A DNA stretch of 38,695 nt from positions 1 through 38,695 of the forward strand of contig JAILEU010000163.1 in assembly GCA_024697785.1 (NCBI GenBank), in the 5' to 3' direction. How positions within the stretch are numbered: the stretch's first letter is position 1; every line of letters starts with the position of its first letter. Both the position numbers and the translations under genes were made by a program. Below the pieces are notes generated by a model. It did not search any database. It was not told where the DNA came from and saw only the letters and a list, made by a program, of their open reading frames with translations. The stretch comes from Bacteroidaceae bacterium. GTDB taxonomy: Bacteria > Bacteroidota > Bacteroidia > Bacteroidales > Bacteroidaceae. Positions 4,513-6,000 of this stretch are shown piece after piece.

Positions 4513-6000
4513 ATGAAGAAACTGTTTATTGAGACCTACGGCTGCCAGATGAACGTGGCCGACAGCGAGGTGGTAGCCTCCATCATGCAGATGGCTGGCT
4601 ATGAGGTGTGCGACAGGCTGGACGAGGCCGACGCCGTGTTCCTCAACACCTGCTCCATCCGCGACAACGCCGAGCAGCGCATCTGGGGGCGTCTGGAAAA
4701 CCTGAACGCCCTGCGCAAGCAGAAGAAAGGGCTCATCATCGGGGTGCTGGGCTGCATGGCCGAACGCGTGAAGGACGACCTCATCGCCAACCACCACGTG
4801 AACCTTGTGGCCGGGCCCGACGCCTATCTCGACCTGCCGGAGCTGATCAGCCAGGCAGAGGTGAACGGCAAGGCCATCAACACCGAGCTCTCGACAACGG
4901 AAACCTACCGCGACATCCTCCCCGCCCGCATCTGCACGGGCAAGGTGTCAGGCTACGTCTCCATCATGCGAGGCTGCAACAACTTCTGCCACTACTGCAT
5001 CGTGCCCTACACCCGCGGACGCGAACGCAGCCGCGACGTGGAGAGCATACTGGCCGAAGTGAAAGACCTGCAGGCAAAAGGCTTCAAGGAGGTGACCCTG
5101 CTGGGACAGAACGTCAACAGCTACCTATATAATAAGGAGGAGTTCAGGAGTTCAGGAGTGCAGGAGTGCAGGAGTTCAGGAGTTCAGGAGTTCAGGAGTT
5201 CAGGAGTTCAGGAGTGCAGGAATGGAGTGCAGGAATGGAGTGCAGGAGTTCAGGAGTTCAGGAGTTCAGACAATAGTAACCCCTCTGCCCTAACCACTAA
5301 CCCCTCAGACAGCGTCTCCTTCCCCGAGCTGCTGAGAATGGTGGCGGAGGCGGTGCCCGACATGAGAGTGCGCTTCACCACCAGCCACCCGAAGGACATG
5401 AGCGACGAGACGTTACAGGTCATAGCCGAGATGCCCAACGTCTGCAAGCACATCCATCTGCCGGTGCAGAGCGGCAGCTCGCGCATCCTGAAGCTGATGA
5501 ACCGCAAATACACGCGTGAGTGGTATCTGGAGCGCGTCGAGGCCATCCGTCGCATCATCCCCGACTGCGGCCTCAGCACCGATGTCTTCTGCGGCTACCA
5601 CTCCGAGACGGAGGAGGACCATCAGGAGACGCTGTCGCTGATGAGGCTTTGCGCCTTCGACTCGGCGTTTATGTTCAAGTACAGCGAACGCCCGGGCACC
5701 TATGCCAGCCGCCATCTGCCCGACGACGTCCCCGAGGAGACAAAGCTGCGCCGCCTGAACGAGATCATCGCCCTGCAGAACGAGCTCTCGGCCGAGAGCA
5801 ACCGCCGCTCTGTGGGGAAGACCTATCAGGTGCTGGTGGAAGGCTTCTCGAAGCGTTCGCGCGACCAGCTGTGCGGCCGCACGGAGCAGAACAAGATGGT
5901 GGTCTTCGACAAAGGCAACCACCACATCGGCGACTTCGTCAACGTCCGCATCACCGGCAGCAGCTCAGCCACCCTGCTGGGAGAAGAGGTACATTCATAG
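4513..6000 (+). CDS. miaB: tRNA-2-methylthio-N6-dimethylallyladenosine synthase MiaB, with in-frame repeat insertion
   Basis: A radical-SAM methylthiotransferase that converts i6A37 to ms2i6A37 in tRNAs reading UNN codons. The N-terminal domain has the auxiliary cluster cysteines C11 (YGCQMN), C47 (NTCSIR) and C81 (LGCMAE). The radical-SAM motif is CNNFCHYC (C155, C159, C162), and a C-terminal TRAM domain covers about 430-493. Length is 495 residues against a usual 440-460. The excess is a low-complexity insert at about 209-267, just after the conserved LGQNVNSY and before the family's FPELL stretch. Residues 210-253 there are built from 8-residue repeats (EFRSSGVQ) encoded by 8-base DNA repeats. 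The catalytic parts on both sides are intact and in frame, so the gene is probably functional. It lies 22 bases after the carbonic anhydrase gene. Confidence 0.96.
   Translation: MKKLFIETYGCQMNVADSEVVASIMQMAGYEVCDRLDEADAVFLNTCSIRDNAEQRIWGRLENLNALRKQKKGLIIGVLGCMAERVKDDLIANHHVNLVAGPDAYLDLPELISQAEVNGKAINTELSTTETYRDILPARICTGKVSGYVSIMRGCNNFCHYCIVPYTRGRERSRDVESILAEVKDLQAKGFKEVTLLGQNVNSYLYNKEEFRSSGVQECRSSGVQEFRSSGVQECRNGVQEWSAGVQEFRSSDNSNPSALTTNPSDSVSFPELLRMVAEAVPDMRVRFTTSHPKDMSDETLQVIAEMPNVCKHIHLPVQSGSSRILKLMNRKYTREWYLERVEAIRRIIPDCGLSTDVFCGYHSETEEDHQETLSLMRLCAFDSAFMFKYSERPGTYASRHLPDDVPEETKLRRLNEIIALQNELSAESNRRSVGKTYQVLVEGFSKRSRDQLCGRTEQNKMVVFDKGNHHIGDFVNVRITGSSSATLLGEEVHS
5138..5267 (+). repeat. 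8-base tandem array inside miaB
   Basis: Ten units of AGGAGTTC (three with TGC in place of TTC) run from 5138 to 5217, followed by two 13-base units (AGGAATGGAGTGC, 5218-5243) and three more 8-base units to 5267: 130 bases in all. Three units make eight codons, which explains the octapeptide period. Gain or loss of one 8-base unit would shift the miaB frame. Confidence 0.95.

Follow-up and report, generated by a model that had tools for sequence, protein, structure and literature searches.

Palindromic sequences that lie in frame within coding regions are already known from Rickettsia and from the intragenic REPs. The Rickettsia palindromic elements (RPE) are described as small, scattered through the genome and inserted in frame into genes that are unrelated to one another, all giving a conserved peptide (PMC10969869, PMC3733652); the reports of Ogata et al. 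(2000, 2002) on RPE are cited here as they are represented in these two papers. REPs, described as 20–40 bp long with a GTAG or CGTC tag, have families (GTAG, CGTC) whose palindromes are reported within the ORFs of many proteins, where siting in linkers or loops has been suggested (PMC3733652). In the Bacteroidales, the BrickBuilt element of Porphyromonas gingivalis is a MITE with a minisatellite of 23 nt repeats, reaching about 1 kb and described as always intergenic (PMC4596501). In the titles and abstract openings of the literature searched, no account of coding palindromes in Bacteroidales was recognised.

The window considered here is the whole stretch of 38,695 nucleotides that was analysed, from contig JAILEU010000163.1 (assembly GCA_024697785.1) of a Bacteroidaceae bacterium. 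At 4513–6000 on the forward strand it carries a miaB ORF of 495 aa, with the Pfam domains UPF0004, Radical_SAM and TRAM and a score of 482.6 bits against TIGR01574 (cut-off 355.3), which places the protein in MiaB; the match is in two stretches, with an insert between them. A preliminary description of this sequence had seen an otherwise intact miaB, with a repeat array at 5138–5267, made of thirteen units of 8 bases and two of 13 and following LLGQNVNSY, and all of this is borne out. The array parses into exactly these 15 units, 10 of AGGAGTTC, 3 of AGGAGTGC and 2 of AGGAATGGAGTGC, 130 bp in total, and includes a perfect run of five AGGAGTTC. Tandem Repeats Finder, run on the window, reports 5138–5269 with a period of 8, 17.2 copies and a score of 173, and the miaB ORF has a period-8 self-match score of 64, where none of 1000 dinucleotide shuffles scored above 10.

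Alignment to the MiaB chain of 7mjv places residue 210 opposite chain residue 226 and residue 266 opposite chain residue 228, so that about 55 extra residues (211–265) are present in a single loop. In an AlphaFold model, for which 37 of the collected sequences were the input, residues 211–264 have pLDDT values below 50 and are flanked by two short strands. With a mean pLDDT of 73.7 the model is of moderate quality, and low confidence is not specific to the insert, since residues 126–161 are likewise below 50; the top PDB matches of the model are the MiaB entries 7mjv–7mjz, with TM-scores of just 0.57/0.63. The model agrees with the inserted segment being a disordered loop but is no demonstration of enzyme activity. 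MiaB with this insert presumably remains functional.

The array is not confined to miaB. In the genome that contains the window (G000; 3.24 Mb in 201 contigs, 84.6% complete) there are 202 matches to AGGAGTTCAGGAGTTC with at most one mismatch, overlaps included, against none for the reversed control. Exact matches number 76, compared with 0 to 11 in each of 18 congeners, eight of which have any. These belong to a dispersed family with a common architecture: an octamer array, a 14 bp stem (GAGTTCAGACRATA), a 30 bp centre, the reverse complement of the stem, and the array in reverse. The core of this inverted-repeat element is fixed at 58 bp in the alignment of copies. The stem pattern has 68 matches in this genome, none being found for the control, and 15 forward/reverse stem pairs, counted from the list of stem matches, are spaced by exactly 44 bp. 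Each of two full copies folds into one long hairpin, and there are terminal inverted repeats, as in a MITE. At gathering thresholds, Rfam found one tRNA and nothing else in the five source sequences searched. In five copies (L131, L135, L137, L142, L147) the stem and centre are kept and an array resembling the heptamer CTTAACTCTTAATTC takes the place of the right arm.

In miaB, the octamer array (5138–5267, forward strand, with the stop-free strand as sense) is the left arm of this element, judged by the parse of its units and the matches in the genome. The inner stem, GAGTTCAGACAATAGT, lies at 5262–5277 on the same strand and overlaps the last array unit; 5262–5275 fits the stem pattern and the remainder follows the alignment of copies. 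The sequence GACAATAGT, 3' of the array, also belongs to the dispersed element. At the right stem there are 11 mismatches in the alignment of copies, which indicates that the right arm is absent, and this copy does not fold better than its shuffles (z 0.86). A CTAACCCCT-like stretch at 5278–5309 (forward strand) closes the inserted part, with its boundary estimated from the 7mjv alignment; similar stretches are also found 3' of the element in L001 and L003. The window has a second octamer array at 35356–35387 on the forward strand, which is intergenic and has no spanning ORF.

It is extremely unlikely that the array was born locally, by slippage from a short GGAG-rich seed in miaB and unrelated to the dispersed copies. 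Tandem arrays can grow in place, and AAGGAGG is present in the codons 5' of this one, but the array passes directly into GAGTTCAGACAATAGT, the stem common to the dispersed copies, and a copy within coaE (L016) has an array–stem junction that is identical in kind. It is instead highly probable that this is a mobile or once mobile palindromic element, similar to the RPE, which lacks its right arm here and is tolerated in a disordered loop of MiaB, and that it is not a switch.

Stretches around the matches listed in this genome gave 55 distinct clusters (83 with duplicates), to which the rest of the genome may add others. In 10 of these 55 an ORF runs through the repeat with at least 40 residues on each side, and in nine of the 10 this ORF matches a protein family, with the element mid-gene and in frame. 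The hosts are an M16 peptidase, a DHODB/GltA-type fusion, YgiQ, CoaE, a TPR protein, MiaB, TamB, a GH95 enzyme and an FAD-dependent protein. The tenth (L009) was dropped as a genic copy, its spanning ORF having no Pfam match, and two ambiguous N-terminal cases (L006, L015) were set aside from the count. Genes occupy about 88% of the window by our own reading of the ORFs, so nine genic clusters among 55 represents a strong depletion, as would be expected if selection removes most insertions in genes.

On one strand of the octamer all three frames are free of stop codons, while on the other all three are stopped. The nine genic copies together have 62 units in the sense orientation, sense being the stop-free strand, and 8 in antisense (summed by hand). 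The peptide RSSD(N/D)(S/G) is common to eight of the nine, L005 being an array only. In coaE the segment is 117 aa in this genome and 67–76 aa in 15 relatives, the insert being absent from the relatives read; 17 of the 18 congeners gave a match to the gene and the pattern used to read the segment missed two of the 17.

The preliminary description had proposed that the array makes miaB an on/off switch, in which slipped-strand gain or loss of 8 bp toggles MiaB and alters the decoding of UNN codons. Its reading of the frame was right, in that one 8 bp step shifts the frame and three units (24 bp) keep it, and a unit that is not a multiple of three, together with five perfect AGGAGTTC in a row, makes slippage physically plausible. 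Yet the same array is dispersed, mostly intergenic, as the arm of an element that is also in frame in coaE and, with it, in eight recognisable genes other than miaB. No phase variation of miaB was seen in a literature search, judged from the search listing. A switch is therefore very unlikely, and slippage of the array may occur as an unselected by-product. Both coaE and argS, a host in another genome discussed below, are essential genes, in which the loss of frame through array slippage would be selected against.

The same loop was then compared among 99 miaB loci, found by protein similarity with one genome per species: 19 from the genomes of the genus, including this one, and 80 from named contigs, with some species in both sets. 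The named loci nearest to this miaB are from Bacteroidaceae/Bacteroidales MAGs, several of them from ruminant guts. Between LGQNVNSY and the RFTTSHPK block, the loop varies from 9 to 85 aa and the reading frame is kept in 99/99, most of these loops having no array, which again argues against the proposed switching. Loops of 10 aa are the commonest among the 89 distinct loop DNAs, and 16 have at least 23 aa. When the 16 loops of at least 60 nt were compared with shuffles, seven folded much better (z −4.9 to −11.1; L104, L070, L098, L067, L080, L057, L062), three were moderate folders (L116, L022, L113), and the remaining six, including the copy in the window, were not self-complementary.

Different repeats occupy this loop in different species. 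In a Prevotella sp. from goat omasum (L062), the loop contains a GGAGTTC element with GACAATAGT and two arms. The congener G003 has an insert of the AAGTCAAC type, and in the G003 genome this unit is matched 194 times, with up to two mismatches, where the control is matched 4 times; there are 265–274 in three more congeners and 27, against 8 for the control, in the genome of the window. The L070 loop contains a tandem double insert, with the NVNSY codons duplicated between the copies, in frame. In comparisons of the 11-mers shared between the loop inserts and their own flanks, just L112 and L095, with more than two shared words, exceed every control locus, and L110 is above all control loci except one. 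The pattern GAGTTCWGACRATA has more matches than its control in G022, G023, G029 and a few more genomes and does not exceed it in G003 (0 against 5), G019, G020, G025 and G027; the patterns AGTGAAAAGTGAAAA and CTCAACTCTCAACTCTCA, searched in 12 genomes, are uninformative, since reversing them gives a control that is only the same array rotated.

The presence of inserts in the loops of many relatives, with at least 16 aa in 24 of the 89 distinct loop DNAs, might suggest that the peptide has come to serve MiaB in some way, for example by binding RNA or a partner. Against this, the inserted sequences are wholly different between species, the segment is below a pLDDT of 50 in the model, and the same peptide is present in unrelated proteins, which makes such an exaptation highly improbable.

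In-frame genic copies were found in two more genomes. In G003, 15 of 22 clusters are inside an ORF that continues for at least 60 residues in each direction. One is in miaB (L268), and the family-named hosts are AroA, an MFS transporter, a sulfatase, PorU, an aldo/keto reductase, a DUF4248 protein, a protein with a BamB-like part, a BT4734-like protein and a PdxB-like enzyme, which is below its NCBIfam cut-off. The family search found no family for L251 and none in NCBIfam for L264; L262 and L265 (two clusters) were left out of the naming. Nine of 21 clusters are genic in G023, one of which (L271) is kept as doubtful, with a single short match to the repeat within an ORF that resembles LptF/G. 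The hosts in G023 are MiaB, ArgS, a glycyl-radical enzyme, an NRPS, an acyltransferase, a GH2 enzyme and an alpha-amylase. A single GH2 gene (L285) has two separate in-frame insertions, at 1507–1579 and 2334–2374.

In G022 both strands of the unit, GGAGTTTA, contain stops, and none of its 22 clusters is genic. Compared with 32 of 98 in the three other genomes pooled, with L271 counted as non-genic, this gives p = 8e-4 by Fisher's test and, against G000 alone, only p = 0.053, in sets of clusters that are the matches listed, not a random sample, and that include some paralogous copies. This contrast is a natural control, in that a unit stopped on both strands has no genic copies in the sample. 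In the G022 copies L206–L212, the arms are alike and the short centre varies by copy; the centre is largely conserved in the genome of the window.

That the array is an artefact, placed wrongly or given the wrong unit number when a fragmented metagenome was assembled, is barely credible. This assembly is in 201 contigs and 84.6% complete, and on C39 and C176 the arrays are at or near the first base, so that their unit counts may be wrong. Nevertheless, the miaB ORF is in frame across its array with conserved halves on either side, and the same arrangement, with other units, is present in other genomes.

The preferred explanation, a palindromic element tolerated within MiaB, would have its origin in a non-coding inverted-repeat element dispersed over the genome, copies of which have probably spread by a transposition-like process. 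One copy, without its right arm, lies in the MiaB loop after LGQNVNSY. As one strand of the octamer is free of stops in any frame, it can be read through as a low-complexity peptide, which the loop presumably tolerates with little effect on MiaB. Purifying selection would then hold the total length at a multiple of three, the array length being filtered by selection and not used as a switch. The preliminary description had also raised the possibility of a surface loop whose frame is maintained by selection. This is a better fit than the switch, although the origin of the insert was missed.

No mobilising enzyme was found in the search for Y1 transposases, which covered this genome and seven others. 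The genome of the window, 84.6% complete, has none, and three of the seven others have one each; no element arrays lie beside these, save for a lone AGGAGTTC in L311. Membership of the REPIN/RAYT systems was rejected, with no Y1 transposase in this genome and none flanked by element arrays elsewhere.

The window contains several other repeats. Just downstream of miaB, at 6005–6170, there is an inverted pair of arrays, with ATTTACTATTTGACG-like repeats facing CGTAAATCGTC-like repeats. Arrays of 11-base units at 48–92 and 332–364, in opposite orientation (AACACCTACCT / AGGTAGGTGTT), form an array-armed inverted repeat, with an additional short palindrome nearby at about 360–381. Inverted octamer arrays (GTCGCATT / AATGCGAC) at 27812–27841 and 28072–28104 are about 230 bp apart between divergent genes. 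An intergenic 21-base unit, TGCGTTGGCGTCGTAGCGTAA, is present in six copies at 513–640, and at 11077–11227 there are two copies of a 78-base repeat that includes a palindrome resembling GCAAGCATCGCTCTGC, a similar stretch being found 3' of the array in L011. At 34640–34930, upstream of a gene that we take to be rpsO, there are two copies of the segment TTTTTCCGCTCAGCTTGCACTACCTTTAACTATTGTTTTAGGTAGGCGGCGCTTCGGGAA and one further copy of its first part.

More tentatively, and on balance somewhat doubtfully, gut Bacteroidales may carry a general class of array-armed palindromes, made up of several families that each have their own octamer, that recurrently enter genes in frame, as in MiaB, CoaE, ArgS, AroA, the PdxB-like enzyme and PorU, and seed new disordered loops there; these would be moved by an enzyme other than a RAYT, with slippage in unit number as a by-product that frameshifts many core genes at low rates. 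What the present observations add to the known in-frame palindromes is their occurrence in several gut Bacteroidales and in central genes, including one enzyme in which a single loop has received repeats of different families. The inserts are a natural record of sites in proteins that tolerate insertion, and they prompt one to ask by what means such DNA is moved when no transposase for it has been recognised. They are also a caution to those reading genomes, as an octamer array within a Bacteroidales gene is not by itself evidence of phase variation.

As far as the published descriptions extend, the closest likeness is to the RPE, the element here being likewise dispersed and palindromic, with one peptide frame shared across unrelated genes, and on these grounds it is assigned to the RPE-like in-frame palindromic elements. 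This likeness is one of description, and the element differs in having arms made of tandem octamer arrays, with a unit that is specific to the species, and in having Bacteroidales as its hosts. The intragenic REPs, as described, are also palindromes within the ORFs of various proteins, whereas the element here has a 58 bp core plus arrays, in a genome without a Y1 transposase. BrickBuilt, from its description, likewise combines a repeat element of Bacteroidales with tandem repeats inside it, but here the units are of 8 bp and there are in-frame genic copies. Simple-sequence contingency loci share with this locus a tandem unit within an ORF that is not divisible by three; in miaB, however, the array belongs to a dispersed element and the gene is a housekeeping gene.
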